The notes under the pieces are model-generated. The model had not been told where the DNA came from, did not search any database, and saw only the letters and a list, made by a program, of their open reading frames with translations. This document shows, piece by piece, positions 4,824 through 56,208 of a stretch of 64,000 bases of DNA (position 1 is the stretch's first letter; the number at the start of each line of letters is the position of its first letter). Location of the stretch: the NCBI RefSeq assembly GCF_009931655.1, contig NZ_CP047984.1, forward strand, positions 1,736,001 to 1,800,000, written 5' to 3'. The DNA is from Pontibacter russatus. GTDB taxonomy: Bacteria > Bacteroidota > Bacteroidia > Cytophagales > Hymenobacteraceae. The position numbers and the translations under genes were made by a program.

Positions 4824-5753
4824 ATGCCACAGGTTAAAATTTTTTCCGGATCCGCCTCCCAGTATTTAGCAGAGAAAATAGCTGCCGCCTACGGCACCTC
4901 ACTCGGCGACGTTTCTATCTCACGCTTCAGCGACGGCGAGATTGGCGTGCATTACAATGAGTCGGTGCGGGGCGCGGAGGTGTTTATCGTCCAGTCCACT
5001 TTTCCGCCGACAGACAACCTGATGGAACTGATGCTGCTAGTGGATGCCGCCAAGCGCGCCTCGGCGCACAAGGTGATTGTGGTGATGCCGTATTACGGCT
5101 ACGCCCGCCAGGACAGGAAAGACAAGCCGCGCGTGTCCATCGGCTCGAAGGTGGTGGCAAACGCCATCCAGTCCTGCGGCGCCGACCGCCTGATGACCTG
5201 CGACCTGCACGCCGGCCAGATACAGGGCTTCTTCGACATCCCGGTGGACCACCTGGACGGCTCGGCCATCTTTGTGCCCTACCTGCGCAGCCTGAATTTG
5301 GGCGACGACCTGATTTTCGCCTCGCCTGATGTGGGCGGTGTGGTTAGAACAAGGGCTTTTGCCAAGAACTTCGGTGCGGAGATGGTGGTCTGCGACAAGT
5401 ACCGGAAGCGCGCCAACGAGATTGCCTCGATGCAGGTAATCGGTGATGTGGAAGGAATGGATGTGGTGCTGATTGACGACATGGTGGACACGGCTGGCAC
5501 CATCACCAAAGCGGCGGAGCTGCTGAAGGAAAAAGGAGCGAAATCGGTGCGCGCCATTGCCACACACCCGATACTTTCGGGGCCTGCCTACGAGCGCATC
5601 GAGAACTCCGTGCTCGAGGAACTGGTGGTGTCGGACACCATCCCGATAAAGCAGGGAGTATCCAAGATAAAGGTGCTCTCATTCTCGGACCTGTTCGCCC
5701 GGGCCATCAACAACGTGGTCACCCACGAGTCGATCAGTTCGCTGTTTATTTAA
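4824..5753 (+). CDS. prs: Ribose-phosphate pyrophosphokinase
   Basis: Makes PRPP from ribose 5-phosphate and ATP, the precursor for purine, pyrimidine, histidine and NAD synthesis. The 309-residue length is normal for class I Prs. Visible signatures are the N-terminal KIFSGSASQYLAEKIA, the FSDGEIGV region, the Mg-binding CDLHAGQIQGFF and the PRPP-binding loop VVLIDDMVDTAGTI at about residues 213-226. It has its own promoter and is followed by rplY and pth, an order common in Bacteroidota. Its product also feeds the PurL pathway encoded just upstream. Confidence 0.97.
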   Translation: MPQVKIFSGSASQYLAEKIAAAYGTSLGDVSISRFSDGEIGVHYNESVRGAEVFIVQSTFPPTDNLMELMLLVDAAKRASAHKVIVVMPYYGYARQDRKDKPRVSIGSKVVANAIQSCGADRLMTCDLHAGQIQGFFDIPVDHLDGSAIFVPYLRSLNLGDDLIFASPDVGGVVRTRAFAKNFGAEMVVCDKYRKRANEIASMQVIGDVEGMDVVLIDDMVDTAGTITKAAELLKEKGAKSVRAIATHPILSGPAYERIENSVLEELVVSDTIPIKQGVSKIKVLSFSDLFARAINNVVTHESISSLFI

Positions 5754-5756
5754 TTG

Positions 5757-5898
5757 TTTCTGCTGGTTGTTGATTGTTTTCTCGACGGTAAAAGCAGCGG
5801 ACAATTTAAACGTTAAATGGCTTCATTGTTAAATGGTTGTTTTCACAGTAGCTGATCCAACAATTAAAACAATACAGCAATTTAACAATCAACTCAGG
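5757..5898. repeat. Intergenic hairpin repeat, GTTGATTGTTG/AAATGG family, copy 1
   Basis: Fills the prs-rplY gap. It starts with CTGGTTGTTGATTGTT and ends with AACAATCAACT, which are inverted copies. Between them are tandem-like GTTAAATGGCTTCATTG and TTAAATGGTTG units and their complements. Related DNA lies at 6600-6757 and 15761-15870. Confidence 0.6.
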
Positions 5899-5901
5899 CT
5901 A

Positions 5902-5909
5902 TACTTTTG
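5902..5909 (+). promoter_or_regulatory. -7 box of rplY
   Basis: TACTTTTG fits TAnnTTTG, 30 bases before the rplY ATG and just after the hairpin repeat. No clear -33 element is visible. Confidence 0.5.
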
Positions 5910-5939
5910 TAGCATATATATTTTAACAAATTCATTTTT

Positions 5940-6527
5940 ATGAAAACTTTAGAGATTATAGGGTTTAAAAGAGCAAATCTCGGAAAACAGCAGTCGAAAG
6001 AGCTGCGCAATGAGTCTTATGTGCCAGGTGTGCTGTATGGCAACGGGGAGCAGGTTCATTTCTATGCCCCGGTTATCCTGTTCAGAGACCTGATTTATTC
6101 GCCAGAAGTATACGAAGTAGACCTGAATATCGAAGGTGCGCATTACAGAGCCATCCTGCAGGACGCTCAGTTCCACCCGGTGAACGAAATGCTGCTGCAC
6201 GTAGACTTCCTGCAACTGCAGGACGACAAGCCAGTGAAACTGGACATCCCTGTGAAGTTTGTGGGCACGTCTCCCGGCGTTATCGCCGGTGGTAAGCTGT
6301 CTGTGAAGCTGCGCGCCCTAAAAGTGAAAGCGCTTCCTGCCAACCTGCCAGACTATGTAGAGGTGGACATCTCTGACCTGGAACTCGGCAAGTCGATTAA
6401 AGTAGCCAAAGTGAAAGCGGAGAACTACGAGGTCCTGACAAACCCGAGCGCTCCTATCGCTACTGTTACGATTCCACGTGCCCTGAAGAGCGCCCAGACG
6501 GAAGAGGCCCGCGGCGGCAAGAAATAA
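5940..6527 (+). CDS. rplY: 50S ribosomal protein L25 (CTC form)
   Basis: Binds 5S rRNA in the large ribosomal subunit. At 195 residues it is the long CTC-type L25: an N-terminal L25 domain (MKTLEIIGFKRANLGK, VPGVLYGNGEQVHF) of about 95 residues, then the C-terminal beta domain (PVKLDIPVKFVGTSPG; VEVDISDLELGKSIKV) and a short charged tail. It sits between prs and pth with its own -7 box and terminator, so it can be expressed alone. Confidence 0.96.
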   Translation: MKTLEIIGFKRANLGKQQSKELRNESYVPGVLYGNGEQVHFYAPVILFRDLIYSPEVYEVDLNIEGAHYRAILQDAQFHPVNEMLLHVDFLQLQDDKPVKLDIPVKFVGTSPGVIAGGKLSVKLRALKVKALPANLPDYVEVDISDLELGKSIKVAKVKAENYEVLTNPSAPIATVTIPRALKSAQTEEARGGKK

Positions 6528-6552
6528 AGAGCGCACATTGCTTTTTAGCATC

Positions 6553-6594
6553 AAATCCTGTCCTGCCTCCAAGCCGGACAGGATTTCTTGTTTT
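6553..6594 (+). terminator. Terminator after rplY
   Basis: Arms AAATCCTGTCC (6553-6563) and GGACAGGATTT (6576-6586) followed by CTTGTTTT, 26 bases past the rplY stop. Confidence 0.85.
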
Positions 6595-6599
6595 AACTA

Positions 6600-6757
6600 A
6601 ATGGCTAAATTGTTATATGGTTGAATTGCTTCATTGTTGAATGGTTTTTATATGTATATATTATATCTGGAACAACCATCTAACAATGAAACCATTTAGC
6701 CATTAAGTTAACCGCTGCTCTTACAGTTAAGCAACAATCAACCACCAGCAACTAACC
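6600..6757. repeat. Intergenic hairpin repeat, GTTGATTGTTG/AAATGG family, copy 2
   Basis: Fills the rplY-pth gap. AAATGGCTAAATTGTTATAT and the complement of CATTTAGCCATT form long imperfect arms around an AT-rich centre with TATATA. The right part carries AACAATCAACCACCAGCAAC, the inverted form of the CTGGTTGTTGATTGTT unit of copy 1. Confidence 0.6.
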
Positions 6758-6766
6758 ATCAGGCGA

Positions 6767-7399
6767 ATGCTGCACACGCTAAAACAGTGGCTCGGGCTGC
6801 GCGAAACAGCGGCCCCCGTCACCGACGACAACGATATGAAATACCTGCTTGTGGGCCTTGGCAACATCGGCCCGGAATATGCGAACACGCGCCACAACAT
6901 CGGCTTCATGGTGCTGGACTACCTGGCCCGGAAATACGAAGGCAACTTTGACGTGGGCCGCCATGCCTTTGTGACCGAAATCAAAACCAAGGGTCGCACT
7001 TATGTGCTGGTGAAGCCCACCACCTATATGAACCTGAGCGGCAAGGCGGTAGGGCACTACCTCCACAGCCTGAAACTACCCCCGGAGCAGATGCTCGTGA
7101 TCACAGACGACATCGCGCTACCCTTCGGCAAGATACGGATACGGGCCAAAGGCAGCCCCGGCGGACACAACGGCCTGAAGCATATAGAGCAGACCCTGGG
7201 CCACAGCAACTATCCCCGCCTCCGGTTCGGCGTCGGCGACACCTTCTCCAAAGGCAAGCAGGTGGACTTTGTGCTGAGCAAATTTAGCGAGGACGAGCAG
7301 ATCGAGTTGCAGACACTGATAGAGAAATCGGCAGAGGCCGCCATCGCCTTCGGCACCATCGGCCTGGAGCGCACCATGAACCAGTTCAACACGAAATAA
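6767..7399 (+). CDS. pth: Peptidyl-tRNA hydrolase
   Basis: Frees tRNA from peptidyl-tRNA dropped by stalled ribosomes. The core starts at MKYLLVGLGNIGPEY (residue 24; base 6836) and shows the catalytic NTRHNIGF histidine, TTYMNLSG, the ITDDIALPFGKIRIR aspartate and GSPGGHNGLKHI. The first 23 residues (MLHTLKQWLGLRET) are an extension seen in some relatives, so 6836 is an alternative start giving the usual ~187 residues. It is the last gene of the prs-rplY-pth block. Confidence 0.95.
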   Translation: MLHTLKQWLGLRETAAPVTDDNDMKYLLVGLGNIGPEYANTRHNIGFMVLDYLARKYEGNFDVGRHAFVTEIKTKGRTYVLVKPTTYMNLSGKAVGHYLHSLKLPPEQMLVITDDIALPFGKIRIRAKGSPGGHNGLKHIEQTLGHSNYPRLRFGVGDTFSKGKQVDFVLSKFSEDEQIELQTLIEKSAEAAIAFGTIGLERTMNQFNTK

Positions 7400-7416
7400 A
7401 ACTGGATACATAAACT

Positions 7417-7763
7417 GTAGAGACACCATATTTTGCGTCATATTTTACATGGCTGGCCTTATAGTGTATAGCCCAAGATGGACAATCCAAGGATAGATTC
7501 CGGACTACTTCTGCGCGGCTAACCAGCTGGGATTACGGCTCGCATGGCTTGTACTTCGTCGCCATCTGCGCCTTGAACCGGGCGTGCTGTTTTGGCGATA
7601 TAACTGAGAAACCATCTGTAGAGAAGCAACATCTTGCGTCTCCTCCACCGGCAGAAGAAAAAACAGAGGTACCCTTTTCTACAGGGAATGAGACTGTACG
7701 GAATGAGACGCAAAATATTGCGTCTTTTCCTTTAAAATAAGACGCAAAAGATGACGTCTCTAC
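7417..7763. repeat. Cluster of four GTAGAGACGCAAA-type palindromic units
   Basis: The pth-MFS gap contains four related units at 7417-7440, 7618-7642, 7705-7726 and 7741-7763. The best is GAGACGCAAAATATTGCGTC, a near-perfect palindrome; the outer ones carry GTAGAGA ends, the last inverted (GTCTCTAC). They look like a REP-type element eroded or nested several times. No gene is evident in this 378-base gap. Confidence 0.7.
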
Positions 7764-7777
7764 ACAAATCCATTGCC

Positions 7778-9046
7778 ATGAAACGCGTCCTCCTCCTGTA
7801 CCGCAACGCCTTTGGCGGCCTCTCCAGGGCGGCCTGGATGATGTCTGTGGTGATGCTGATAAACCGCAGCGGCTCCATGGTGACGCCTTTCCTGAGCCTT
7901 TACGTGACCGACATGCTGGGCTACAACCTCCGCGAGGCGGGCATCATCCTGAGCATATATGGCATGGGATCGGTGTGCGGTTCTTTTCTGGGAGGCTGGC
8001 TGACCGACCGCGTCGGGCATTTTAAGGTGCAGTTCGTGAGCCTCACTTTGGGCGGAAGCCTGTATTTTCTGCTGCTCAACCTGCGGCAGTTCGAGTACCT
8101 GGCGGCCGGGGTGTTCATCCTCAGCCTCGTGAACGACTGCCTGCGCCCCGCCAACTCCGCCTCCATTGCGCATTACGCCAAACCCGAGAACATGACACGG
8201 GCGTTTTCGCTGAACCGCATGGCCATCAACCTCGGTTTTTCGGTGGGCCCGGCGGTGGGCGGCTTGCTGGCGGCTGTCTCTTACCGCTGGCTCTTTGTGG
8301 CCGATGGCCTTACCTGCATTGGGGCGGGCATTTTCTTCTTTCTGTACTTCCGCAACCGGCAGGGTCACCGGCCGCCGCCAAAGCAGCAGGCCAGCCTGGC
8401 AGTAAAGGCGCCAACTGTGCGCTCTCCCTACCGCGATGGCTATTTCCTGCTGTTTGTGCTGCTGTGCTGCAGCTATGCCGTCATGTTTTTCCAGCTGTTC
8501 TCTACCTTGCCCCTGTACTGGCGGCGCATATATGACCTGCCGGAAAGCCAGATTGGCCTGCTGATGGCCCTGAACGGGCTGATAGTGTTTCTGCTCGAGA
8601 TGATTGTGGTGTACCTGGTGGGCGAACGCATTCGGAAGCAGGCACTGATAGCGGCAGGCGTATTGCTTCTGGGCTTGTCGTTCGTGGTGCTGAACATGAC
8701 ACAGCACTTGGGCGGGCTTTATTTCGCGATGCTGTTGCTCAGCGTCTCCGAGATTTTTGCGATGCCGTTTATGGCCACCATTACGGTAGAGCGCTCCGAC
8801 GAAAGCAACCGCGGCGCCTACATGGGCCTTTATACCATTTCCTACGCAGCCGCGCACGTGATAGCGCCCTTCATGGGCACCACCATCATCTCTACCTATA
8901 GCTTTGCCACGCTGTGGTGGGCAACCGCCGCCCTGGCTATCCTGACAGCGGCTGGGTCATATTGGGTGGTGAAGCAGATGGAGGCCCAACGGAAGCGGCT
9001 ACAGGACATTGGCGCAACAGACAACATCGCACTGACTACGGCCTGA
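7778..9046 (+). CDS. MFS transporter, probable drug/solute exporter
   Basis: A 422-residue integral membrane protein with about twelve hydrophobic segments. The loop after the second segment reads GGWLTDRVGHFKVQ, the major-facilitator motif A, and segment 5 has NLGFSVGPAVGG, typical of proton-driven exporters. I start it at ATG 7778 (MKRVLLLYRNAFGG); the in-frame ATG at 7751 lies inside a palindromic repeat and adds only nine residues. The substrate cannot be read from the sequence. The stop codon abuts a small repeat element at 9047. Confidence 0.9.
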   Translation: MKRVLLLYRNAFGGLSRAAWMMSVVMLINRSGSMVTPFLSLYVTDMLGYNLREAGIILSIYGMGSVCGSFLGGWLTDRVGHFKVQFVSLTLGGSLYFLLLNLRQFEYLAAGVFILSLVNDCLRPANSASIAHYAKPENMTRAFSLNRMAINLGFSVGPAVGGLLAAVSYRWLFVADGLTCIGAGIFFFLYFRNRQGHRPPPKQQASLAVKAPTVRSPYRDGYFLLFVLLCCSYAVMFFQLFSTLPLYWRRIYDLPESQIGLLMALNGLIVFLLEMIVVYLVGERIRKQALIAAGVLLLGLSFVVLNMTQHLGGLYFAMLLLSVSEIFAMPFMATITVERSDESNRGAYMGLYTISYAAAHVIAPFMGTTIISTYSFATLWWATAALAILTAAGSYWVVKQMEAQRKRLQDIGATDNIALTTA

Positions 9047-9160
9047 TAAGTAAAAGGACACAAGTATGAAGACACAAGACTTTTTATGCTATATATAGCT
9101 GATTTCCAGGCAACTTATATAGTAATTTTATGAGTAATGTAAGCTGATTTATATTCGGGT
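9047..9160. repeat. MITE-like element with TAAGTAAAAGGACACAA end, copy A
   Basis: Begins directly after the MFS stop codon with TAAGTAAAAGGACACAAG, then GACACAAGACTTTTTATG, a TATATATAG core and ATGAGTAATGTAAGCTGATTT. The same order of blocks occurs at 39153-39303 and 59094-59212. Its right end is degenerate, so the boundary is approximate. The rest of the 9161-9483 gap shows no gene or clear signal. Confidence 0.6.
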
Positions 9161-47304: not shown

Positions 47305-48606
47305 ATGAAACAGCTTAGTCCCCTATTGCTCCTGCTCCTCCTTCTACCTGCTTTCTCTTTTGCCCAGACAAACTACAAACCCGGCTTGGTGGTGACGGCG
47401 GCAGGCGACACGCTGCACGGTTTTATCGACTATCAGGAGTGGGCGCAGACTCCGGAAGCCATCTCCTTCCGGGCATCTGAAAGTAGCGGAACGGAAGAGG
47501 CGTTTACGGCCGGCAACTCCCGCTATTTCGAGGTTACCGGCATGGAGGCCTACCGAAGTTATGTGGGTCCTGTCTCGACAAACAGAATAGACCGAAACAA
47601 ACTGCCAGGCAACAGCGCTGATGCCAGCAGTACTGTAACAGACACGGTGTACCTGAAAATACTGCAGGATGGTGTAAACGTAGCGCTGTACACCCACCGG
47701 GACGATATCAAGCAAAGGTTCTTTATAGCCAAGAAGGGAGTGGACGCCCCAGCGGAGCTTATATACAGAAGGTTTTACCAGTCCGGCAACCGCTCCAAAA
47801 TCGTGTCTCATAACGGCTACGCAGGGCAGCTCCTGAGCCTGGCAAGGGAGTATGATAAGTTGACGCCCCTCCTTGAACGTCAAATTAAGTCGGCCGTTTA
47901 CAATGAGCAGCCACTGCTGGAGTTGGTAAGCAAGCTAAATGGCCTGGGTGATGAGGAAATTGCGCAGGAATTAAAGAACAGGCACCTGACTGGCTTTTTC
48001 ATCGGTGTTGCGCTCAACCGAAGCTCCCTTTTGATAGAGGGGAAGGACGATTTGGCGGATGCCGACAGCAACCCGGCTTCCTATATGCCACGGCTGACTT
48101 TCGGGTTCGACGCCTTCCTGAACAGGAATGTGCAAAGGACTGTTTTGCGCCTGGAGGCAGGTGTGACAAACGCCAGTTACCATGTGCAGGAAGTCAAGAG
48201 AAGGATAGGCATCAAAAACGGCTATCACGAAATATCCTATAGGTTAGCGTACCAAACAGTCTCGCTCACGCCACAGGTTATCTATAGCCTCTATAACAGA
48301 GATAACTTAAAGTTCTATGTGGGAGGAGGCATGGCCTTGAACTTTTCCAACTACACAAAAAACTTCTACCGGGAGCAGTACTTCAACCCGCACCTGGACC
48401 TTGTGCAGGAGCCAGATGAAAAAGACGATTACAGAGAGTTGGAAACAAAGTCGTCCAGTTATATGCTGAGAGCGGGGGTGGTGCTAAACAACAAGTTTGA
48501 GTTCTCTGCCGCCTACCAGGGCCCTAGCGTCTTCACAAGATACACCAATTTTAGCTACTCAGCCAGTTCTGTGAACGTAGGCGTCAATTACCTGTTCAGA
48601 GATTAG
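47305..48606 (+). CDS. Outer membrane beta-barrel protein, tandem paralogue 1
   Basis: A 433-residue exported protein: signal peptide MKQLSPLLLLLLLLPAFSFA, an N-terminal soluble part (~20-200) with YKPGLVVTAAGDTLHGFIDY, a Bacteroidota-wide opening, then a barrel-like C-terminal half with alternating strands and the end VNVGVNYLFRD. Function unknown. A paralogue lies 381 bases downstream; the first 81 bases of both genes are identical and so are 29 bases near the 3' end, while the middle has diverged widely. A hairpin follows at 48649-48687. Confidence 0.83.
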   Translation: MKQLSPLLLLLLLLPAFSFAQTNYKPGLVVTAAGDTLHGFIDYQEWAQTPEAISFRASESSGTEEAFTAGNSRYFEVTGMEAYRSYVGPVSTNRIDRNKLPGNSADASSTVTDTVYLKILQDGVNVALYTHRDDIKQRFFIAKKGVDAPAELIYRRFYQSGNRSKIVSHNGYAGQLLSLAREYDKLTPLLERQIKSAVYNEQPLLELVSKLNGLGDEEIAQELKNRHLTGFFIGVALNRSSLLIEGKDDLADADSNPASYMPRLTFGFDAFLNRNVQRTVLRLEAGVTNASYHVQEVKRRIGIKNGYHEISYRLAYQTVSLTPQVIYSLYNRDNLKFYVGGGMALNFSNYTKNFYREQYFNPHLDLVQEPDEKDDYRELETKSSSYMLRAGVVLNNKFEFSAAYQGPSVFTRYTNFSYSASSVNVGVNYLFRD

Positions 48607-48648
48607 GGTTTAACAGGGGAAGCACTGCGCCTTTCGCGCCTCAAAAAA

Positions 48649-48687
48649 ACAGGAGGCTGGCAACAATACCCGTTGTCAGCCTCCTGT
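48649..48687. terminator. Hairpin after paralogue 1
   Basis: Arms ACAGGAGGCTGGCA (48649) and TGTCAGCCTCCTGT (ending 48687) pair with one G-T. The adjacent run of seven A on the plus strand gives a T run only on the minus strand, so termination of plus transcripts is less certain. Confidence 0.55.
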
Positions 48688-48816
48688 GTCTATATAACCA
48701 GGCATTGCGTTGCACTTTAGTATAGATTTTCCTCCAATCCATCCAGCAACCTATATGCACAGCAGCAGCATTTAGGATATGGCCAACTACAATAAGACAT
48801 CCCTGGCGGCTGCTAC

Positions 48817-48852
48817 AACCTCCGGCTATATATAGCTGTCCGTTCCGAAGCT
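48817..48852 (+). repeat. 36-base direct repeat, left copy
   Basis: AACCTCCGGCTATATATAGC followed by TGTCCGTTCCGAAGCT. An identical sequence but one base occurs at 50743-50778. The pair brackets the second paralogue and a MITE. Confidence 0.8.
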
Positions 48853-48986
48853 CACGGTTTAGAACTGAATCTGCCCTACTGTTGTGGCAAGTTTAGAAGG
48901 GTAAAAATTATGTACATGGGGTGTTGTATATCAAGCATCTGCTATTACATTTATAGATTCATATATACCTATAAAATCCACTACTT

Positions 48987-50273
48987 ATGAAACAGCTTAG
49001 TCCCCTATTGCTCCTGCTCCTCCTTCTACCTGCTTTCTCTTTTGCCCAGACAAACTACAAACCCGGCCTGGTGGTGACAACAGCAGGCGACACGCTGCAT
49101 GGTCTTATAGATTATAGGGAATGGGACCAGAACCCAAAGGTTATCTCCTTCCGGGCTTCTGCGAACAGTGGCGCTACACAGGAGTTTGACCCCAGCACCT
49201 CCCGCTACTTTGAGATAACAGGCATGGAAGTCTACCAAAGCTACGAGGGGCCAGTTTCCATGGGCAGAGTGGACAAGGATAATCTCTCCTATAAGAAAGC
49301 CGATACCACAGCCATAATAGGCAGAATATTCTTAGACAAACGCCAGGATGGACCAAAGGCAGCCCTTTACTCTTATAAGGACGGTATCAAAGAAAGATTC
49401 TTCCTGTTGGAGAAAGGGGAAAATAAGCCGCAGGAGCTGCTTTACAGGCGATATTTTAAAGCTACGAACAGTGCCGAGGTGGTGACGCAGCGCTTTTATG
49501 TAGGTCAGCTTCTGAACGTAGCGAGGCATAAGGCAATACTGACAGAAAAGCTGCAGCGGGAGATTGAGTCAGCTGCGTACAAAGAGCAAGACCTGCTCAG
49601 GGTTATTGGCAAGCTCAACGGCCTGAGTGTCGATGAAGTGGAGACAGCCAGGAAGAGTAAAATAGCCACAAACTTTTTTGCCGGTATTGCCTTCAGCAGA
49701 GGCACCATCGCGATATATGGTCAGGACCATTTTGCAGATGCTGATGAAAACACTGCTTCTTATATGCCACGGGTGGCCTTTGGCCTTGACACCTATTTAA
49801 ATGAGAACGTGCAAAAACTTGTTCTCAGGTTAGAGGGAAGTCTGACGAACGCCAACCACCGCGTCCGGAAAACACAGCAGACAGGTGGTGGTGGCTATGA
49901 TGAACTGATATACAAAGTGGTTCAGCAGACAGCTTCTTTATCGCCTCAAATCATTTACAACCTTTACAATAAAGAGAGCCTAAAGTTTTATTTAGGGGCT
50001 GGCCTGGCGCTTAACTACTCGCATTACTCGCAGAACAATTATCAGAGACAGCACTTTTATGGCACCCAGGCAGGAACGGTTTATGAAAAGGAAGCCTACA
50101 AAGTGCTGCTTCCCGTCTGGTCTTCTTACACTGTCAGAGCGGGAGTGGTTTTGAACAGAAAATACGAGATTTCTGCCATGTACCTGGCACCCGGCACCAT
50201 CACACGGTATACCAGTTCTGAGGTGGCAACCGGCTCTACCAACGTAGGCGTCAATTACCTGTTCAGAGACTAA
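48987..50273 (+). CDS. Outer membrane beta-barrel protein, tandem paralogue 2
   Basis: A 428-residue protein of the same family as the gene at 47305: identical signal peptide, YKPGLVVTTAGDTLHGLIDYR, similar layout throughout (for example SFRASANSGATQEFDPSTSR versus SFRASESSGTEEAFTAGNSR) and the end VNYLFRD. The middle parts differ at roughly half of the residues by eye, yet the gene ends are almost identical at DNA level. Same-strand tandem arrangement, own AT-rich leader, no good promoter box. Surface-exposed variation between the two is plausible. Confidence 0.83.
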   Translation: MKQLSPLLLLLLLLPAFSFAQTNYKPGLVVTTAGDTLHGLIDYREWDQNPKVISFRASANSGATQEFDPSTSRYFEITGMEVYQSYEGPVSMGRVDKDNLSYKKADTTAIIGRIFLDKRQDGPKAALYSYKDGIKERFFLLEKGENKPQELLYRRYFKATNSAEVVTQRFYVGQLLNVARHKAILTEKLQREIESAAYKEQDLLRVIGKLNGLSVDEVETARKSKIATNFFAGIAFSRGTIAIYGQDHFADADENTASYMPRVAFGLDTYLNENVQKLVLRLEGSLTNANHRVRKTQQTGGGGYDELIYKVVQQTASLSPQIIYNLYNKESLKFYLGAGLALNYSHYSQNNYQRQHFYGTQAGTVYEKEAYKVLLPVWSSYTVRAGVVLNRKYEISAMYLAPGTITRYTSSEVATGSTNVGVNYLFRD

Positions 50274-50369
50274 GCCGAAGCTGGACATATATGACAAGGC
50301 AGGCTAATGGATGCTTTTTATATATCCGCTTCTTGTCTGTTCAGTACCAATTGAGCGACAACATATTAT

Positions 50370-50695: not shown

Positions 50696-50742
50696 ATATA
50701 GGATATAGCAAACACAACGAACCGTTGTTAAGCCATAACTAT

Positions 50743-50778
50743 AACCTCCGGCTATATATAGCTGTCCGCTCCGAAGCT
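50743..50778 (+). repeat. 36-base direct repeat, right copy
   Basis: Matches 48817-48852 at 35 of 36 positions (TGTCCGCTCC instead of TGTCCGTTCC). Confidence 0.8.
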
Positions 50779-55032: not shown

Positions 55033-56208
55033 TTACACTTTGATATATACCCGCTTCTTGTCCATCCAGTACCCGATCAGCCACAGCAGCAGCATATACG
55101 ACACGGCAAAGAGCAGCGAGGCGTTGTTGCCGGCCAGCCACGACAGGTACAGGTTATCATATAGCCACCCCCTCAGGCTCGTGTCTCCCACCGGAATCAG
55201 GCCCAGCAACTCGATTATAATGCCTGACAGGGCATATATAAACAGCGGGTTCCGGCCGAACACCTCGAAGAAATAAGTCCAGCCTTTGTAGTTGGCCACT
55301 TCAATCACCAGCATCAGCACGGCCAGCACCAGCAGGTCCAGGCCAATGGTATAGACTACGTATGAGCTCGTCCAGATAGGCTTGTTGATGGGGAAATAGA
55401 CATCCCAGACGAGCGCCACCACAATACATACCGCCGCCGACAAGGCCAGCTTGAACACCGTGCCCATGTTGTTGCCGTTCCGCTGTATATATAAACCCGC
55501 CAGAAAGCCTCCGATGACGTTTACGATGGCAGGAAGCGTGCTCAGCAGCCCCTCCGGATCGAACGGAATGCCGTAGCCCCCATACAGATTGTCGGTGGGT
55601 ATCAGCAACAGGTCGAACTTGAGGGCGGCGTTGCCTTCTAGGCTGTAAGGGTCGGGCTGGTCTCCGAAGAAATACATCATGGCCCAGTAGGCAAGCAAAG
55701 CAATGGCGCTGAAAACGATGGCGCCCTTCACCTTCAGGTAATGCACCACCAGCGCCGCAATGCCGTAGCACAATGCAATGCGCTGCAGCACACCCATTAT
55801 CCGGATATCGGAGAAATCAATCAGCGCCAGCCCGCCGGTGTCGGTGCGGGAGACGAAGGGGAAAGCGTTCAGGAAAAGGCCGATCAGGAAAATCAGGGCC
55901 GTTCTGGTGAACACCTTCCTGAGGAAAGCGCCGTCGCCCTGCCTCTCAAACTTGCGCATGCTGAAGCTCATGGCGTTGCCCACCACAAACAGGAAGGTCG
56001 GGAAAACCAGGTCAGTGACGGTGAACCCGTGCCAGGCCGCGTGCCGGAAAGGCGCGTATACATTTTGCCAGCTTCCGGGCGTGTTCACCACTATCATCAG
56101 GGCAATCGTCATGCCCCGCAGCACGTCCAGCGACAGGTAGCGCTGCCGCGTCGCGGGCTTCAGAAGGCCATCCGGGGAAACGGCCTGCGCAGTAAAGAGT
56201 TTATTCAT
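55033..56208 (-). CDS. HGSNAT-like transmembrane acyltransferase (DUF5009)
   Basis: A 391-residue, ~11-helix membrane protein. The opening RYLSLDVLRGMTIALMIVVN TPG, then HAAWHGFTVTDLVFPTFLFV and VGNAMSFSMRKF are typical of bacterial heparan-alpha-glucosaminide N-acetyltransferase relatives, which in animals pass an acetyl group from cytosolic acetyl-CoA to a sugar amine on the other side of the membrane (catalytic His in the HGF region). It lies 57 bases after the creatininase gene and 52 before the deacetylase, so an operon is likely. Confidence 0.87.
   Translation of the reverse strand: MNKLFTAQAVSPDGLLKPATRQRYLSLDVLRGMTIALMIVVNTPGSWQNVYAPFRHAAWHGFTVTDLVFPTFLFVVGNAMSFSMRKFERQGDGAFLRKVFTRTALIFLIGLFLNAFPFVSRTDTGGLALIDFSDIRIMGVLQRIALCYGIAALVVHYLKVKGAIVFSAIALLAYWAMMYFFGDQPDPYSLEGNAALKFDLLLIPTDNLYGGYGIPFDPEGLLSTLPAIVNVIGGFLAGLYIQRNGNNMGTVFKLALSAAVCIVVALVWDVYFPINKPIWTSSYVVYTIGLDLLVLAVLMLVIEVANYKGWTYFFEVFGRNPLFIYALSGIIIELLGLIPVGDTSLRGWLYDNLYLSWLAGNNASLLFAVSYMLLLWLIGYWMDKKRVYIKV

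Follow-up and report, generated by a model that had tools for sequence, protein, structure and literature searches.

A short 5′ patch of identity in a long-diverged tandem pair of outer-membrane protein genes of Pontibacter russatus

Two neighbouring outer-membrane protein genes of Pontibacter russatus, here called gene A and gene B, are identical over their first 81 nucleotides and differ at about half of the residues in the bodies that follow. The best explanation, which we consider very probable, is that an old tandem pair later acquired one short patch at the 5′ end through ectopic gene conversion or template switching. A preliminary description of this DNA had proposed gene conversion or recombination at both ends of the genes. 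That proposal holds for the 5′ end, where dS is 0 against high or saturated values elsewhere and the identity conflicts with the body tree. It does not hold for the 3′ end, which is conserved in amino acids and similar in codons across orthologues.

The genome of P. russatus is complete and consists of a single contig of 4.97 Mb; the window analysed here is a stretch of 64,000 nucleotides. Both genes lie on its forward strand, in the same direction and 380 nt apart. The open reading frame of gene A (47305–48606) encodes a secreted outer-membrane protein of 433 aa and that of gene B (48987–50273) a paralogue of 428 aa. Overall, 53% of the residues are identical. An AlphaFold model (mean pLDDT 87.8) predicts a signal peptide/helix, a beta-rich N-terminal domain, a short helical stretch and a C-terminal beta-barrel, and Foldseek matched the predicted barrel to those of OmpA, OmpW, Ail and OmpX. 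From the model and the fold matches, the proteins are predicted barrels exposed at the surface. Gene A matches PF13505 weakly (E 3.8e-6; 27.6 bits, just under the curated cut-off of 28.7 bits), B has no Pfam match, and 7 of 20 relatives match PF13505 at E≤0.01. The spacer after A folds, as RNA from the forward strand, into a strong hairpin with a stem of ∼16 bp (48650–48685), which is probably a terminator. A similar-looking inverted repeat can be seen in the sequence after the corresponding gene of P. pamirensis.

The copies of the 5′ tract lie at 47305–47385 in A and 48987–49067 in B, both on the forward strand, and cover the start codon and the signal-peptide codons 1–27. The exact match of 81 bases given in the preliminary description is confirmed. 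Identity begins exactly at the ATG; the preceding base and the leaders differ. All of the degenerate codons within codons 1–27 are the same in A and B (26/26). Synonymous divergence along the length, which had been suggested as a check, is not uniform: the A–B dS is 0 in codons 1–27 and at least 0.49 or saturated in the other windows. For the same 5′ codons, dS against the orthologues is 0.8–1.75. The orthologues do not share these codons (9/15 and 9/14 identical between the pair and the orthologues). In codons 1–20, A and B are 100% identical to each other, 58–67% identical to the orthologues and 33–67% identical to other family members; elsewhere in the family this signal-peptide region is the least conserved part. 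Codons 21–27 of the tract fall in a motif conserved family-wide, and codons 21–40 have 57–82% nucleotide identity across the family.

We used a permutation test conditioned on variable sites, with P. pamirensis and another Pontibacter genome, G069, as the orthologues. Of the sites variable across these four sequences (A, B and the two orthologues), the first 40 are all identical between A and B. The longest runs obtained by permutation were 16 sites (20,000 permutations) and, in a second run, 18 (5,000 permutations). When 16 other family members served as reference, all 73 of 73 variable sites were identical, compared with a permutation maximum of 27. Thus the tract is longer than permuted polymorphic sites allow, as gene conversion would leave it. 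Two further features are of the kind that gene conversion leaves: local synonymous identity is far above that of the rest of the pair, and the tract joins A with B whereas the body tree joins B with the orthologues and leaves A outside. The shortness of the tract (81 nt) counts against gene conversion.

The second exact match, of 29 nt, lies at 48574–48602 in A and 50241–50269 in B, both on the forward strand, and covers the codons of NVGVNYLFRD. It is correct as letters, as the preliminary description had it. However, the run comprises only 7 variable sites and has P=0.37 after removal of the 5′ tract. The orthologues carry nearly the same codons: the 3′ end reads ...GGC ATT AAC TAC CTG TTC AGA GAT in P. 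pamirensis and ...GGC GTC AAC TAC CTG TTC AGA GAC in G069. With such similar codons in the orthologues and a run that lacks significance, this match needs no recombination. Judged from these sequences, it reflects conservation of the protein together with a similar choice of codons. Identical ends therefore count as evidence at one end only. The earlier argument that drift would not spare the ends survives at the 5′ end, where the permutations exclude drift, and fails at the 3′ end.

Between the ends, the bodies have 49% residue identity and ∼59% nucleotide identity, in agreement with the earlier estimate that about half of the residues had drifted. Where A and B have the same residue, 84 of 183 codons are identical, which indicates that synonymous sites are saturated; the level is the same as that between species (77/171 and 93/199). 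In the body tree, B forms a clade with P. pamirensis and G069, and A stands outside (bootstrap 99%). A second tree under a mixture model gave the same clade (support 100/97), and sisterhood of A and B was rejected by the AU test (p=0.009). The placement of A depends on one internal branch that is well supported but short (0.17). This topology makes the split of A from B old and the shared 5′ end newer, and the case for ectopic recombination rests chiefly on the discordance between body tree and 5′ identity. As read from the sequences, the separation of A and B predates the split of B from the P. pamirensis and G069 orthologues. Both P. pamirensis (G025) and G069 have one such gene, adjoining the same hexapeptide-repeat gene, and their loci have no A. 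Either A was lost there or it came into the P. russatus lineage from an unsampled relative. No orthologue of A was found among 50 Pontibacter genomes.

A search of the whole genome at E≤0.01, also suggested earlier as a check, returned only A and B, with no silent or partial copies. We also examined whether such tracts recur in tandem sets of the family, eight in all; none of the seven besides A and B has a comparable tract. In a Mucilaginibacter MAG (L035), copies match exactly over stretches of 35 and 30 nt close to the 5′ end, but conditioning on the sites that vary left these without significance (P=0.22 and 0.11). Shorter runs in G026 (16 nt, P=0.0085) and L014 (14 nt, P=0.02) were also rejected, being marginal, without an outgroup and failing multiple testing. 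As observations on the family itself, a tandem array of four members occurs in Adhaeribacter aquaticus (L034, 4983–10301). The Mucilaginibacter MAG has an array of three (4887–9099), in which the leaders of copies 1 and 2 look alike by eye.

The spacers hold traces of the duplicated unit. In P. pamirensis, the outer-membrane protein gene is followed by a convergent gene whose counterpart in the window, by BLAST match, is 55033–56208; its protein scores against PF07786 (HGSNAT-like acyltransferase). Downstream of A, on the reverse strand, lies a degraded relic of the 3′ end of this acyltransferase gene (48710–48836), 65% identical over 133 columns to the intact 55033–55165 (Smith-Waterman score 31, shuffle maximum 16). 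Downstream of B, on the same strand, a relic of the same 3′ end is found at 50319–50363 (78% over 45 nt; score 25, shuffle maximum 18), together with a weaker, probable second piece at 50696–50730 (81% over 36 nt to P. pamirensis; score 20, shuffle maximum 17). On the simplest reading, the duplicated unit would comprise the outer-membrane protein gene and the 3′ end of the convergent gene beside it, and the duplication would be old enough for the spare ends to have decayed. G069 (L073) also has an acyltransferase relic, between its outer-membrane protein gene and a DUF5916 gene (score 35, shuffle maximum 18). G069 has a single outer-membrane protein gene at the locus, and its relic shows duplication or displacement of the neighbour's 3′ end either earlier than the A/B pair or independently of it.

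A block of 40 nt occurs after A (48813–48852) and after B (50739–50778). The copies are 95% identical between the units, and the left flank, which is relic sequence, is far more diverged. We rejected the block as a dispersed repeat: the full block is found only at these two sites, and elsewhere in the genome only its palindromic core recurs, as degenerate relatives. It may represent another small patch of homogenisation or, alternatively, a small element of the intergenic DNA. Separately, the window as a whole, with 54% GC, is rich in TATATA (116 occurrences versus 6 expected from dinucleotide shuffles) and in TATATATA (24 versus 0.3 expected from dinucleotide shuffles). These sites lie in spacers and in some coding DNA, for example at 9090, 19877, 44979, 48827 and 50753, and some are within a GCTATATATAGC palindrome.

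The history that we favour would begin with an old tandem duplication of the unit described above, before B split from its orthologues in P. pamirensis and G069, after which the bodies would have diverged to synonymous saturation. Later, and probably recently, in the P. russatus lineage, a single short ectopic recombination event (gene conversion or a template switch involving direct repeats ∼1.7 kb apart) would have overwritten the first ∼81 nt of one gene with those of the other. At its downstream edge the tract ends with codon 27, beyond which the two coding sequences are no longer the same. The upstream edge probably lies at the ATG because homology between the copies begins there, the leaders being unrelated; a comparison of the A and B leaders that also took in those of P. 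pamirensis and G069 gave weak AT-rich matches only.

That the edge falls exactly on the start codon could hint at function, and it is what speaks for a constraint at the nucleotide level, such as RNA structure, a small-RNA target or a translation ramp, keeping both 5′ ends identical. A constraint of this kind is very unlikely, however. The orthologues lack these codons, the family as a whole varies widely over codons 1–20, the fold of the tract is not unusual (z=+0.60) and Rfam has no match at the locus. Uneven drift, with the N-terminus as merely the conserved part of an old pair, would account fully for the 3′ end and finds some backing in the family-wide conservation of codons 21–40. It has next to no chance of being right for the 5′ end, since codons 1–20 are the least conserved elsewhere and identical here, and the permutations exclude it. 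A different history would have B duplicated recently and one body then exchanged for that of a diverged homologue when conserved ends recombined, either from an introgressed allele or because a single crossover inserted foreign DNA at the 5′ end. Such a replacement would likewise give identical ends and a foreign middle. It would also suit the somewhat higher GC3 of A (0.64 versus 0.55 in B) and the position of B, which has the ortholog-like body and is one slot from the hexapeptide gene flanking the single gene in other species. We nevertheless judge it improbable. The spacers have diverged too, and the relics are ∼65–78% like the intact acyltransferase gene, so that a recent duplication of the whole unit is not in evidence. 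Homogenisation of the 3′ end lacks significance, and no donor with an A-like body was found in the 50 Pontibacter genomes.

The preliminary description had further suggested a possible cassette-swap system for a surface protein. In such a system, or in phase variation, the identical ends would serve as active sites of recombination that exchange protein bodies. In its favour, the two 81-bp copies form direct repeats that might in principle recombine, both proteins are predicted surface barrels, and the bab genes of Helicobacter pylori act in this way (PMC4552749). The evidence from the genome points elsewhere, and we think there is very little likelihood of such a system. Instead of several donor or silent copies, this complete, single-contig genome has two full copies; homology is significant at one end only, the 3′ match (P=0.37) being common to orthologues; the species closest in body sequence have one gene at the locus; and no similar tract appears in the seven other tandem sets. 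A reduced form would be a two-gene switch, in which recombination between the 81-bp repeats deletes 1,682 bp and places the body of B behind the promoter of A. If true, cells of one population would carry different surface barrels; we rate this, too, as a very slight chance. An old pair with one later 5′ patch remains the reading that we prefer.

On that reading, the pair offers a clean case of ectopic conversion over a very short tract, in genes whose bodies retain only ∼59% DNA identity and in an environmental genus that has been little studied. The 3′ match also cautions that tails which agree can reflect ordinary conservation. From the acyltransferase relics one can read off directly what unit was duplicated and how old it is in relative terms. 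The observation is real but modest, and it changes no general picture.

A search of the literature on duplication in Pontibacter yielded nothing. Compared with the outer-membrane beta-barrel proteins of PF13505/PF13568, the A/B family is alike in its C-terminal barrel, as indicated by weak model scores and fold matches to OmpA, OmpW and Ail. It differs in having a conserved N-terminal region of ∼220 residues that has no Pfam or NCBIfam family. As a gene pattern, the closest known case is babA/babB of H. pylori; the comparison is of pattern and not of protein kinship. babA, babB and babC are outer-membrane paralogues with near-identical N-terminal ends and diverged middles, and their gene conversion is placed ∼60–240 bp from the start codon (PMC4552749, which cites Pride & Blaser 2002 for the original bab work). 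They resemble A and B as outer-membrane paralogues with a shared N-terminal end and, on our preferred reading, conversion near the start. However, the bab genes show similarity at either end, lie at separate loci, differ from strain to strain and undergo phase variation via CT repeats, whereas A and B are in tandem and have one significant end and no CT-type repeats. In Salmonella, gene conversion between the two chromosomal paralogues tufA and tufB proceeds in contiguous nonreciprocal patches (PMC5485169), and A and B share with them a contiguous patch between two chromosomal paralogues. The tuf copies are nearly identical throughout, whereas in A and B the short 5′ patch alone is homogenised between strongly diverged bodies.
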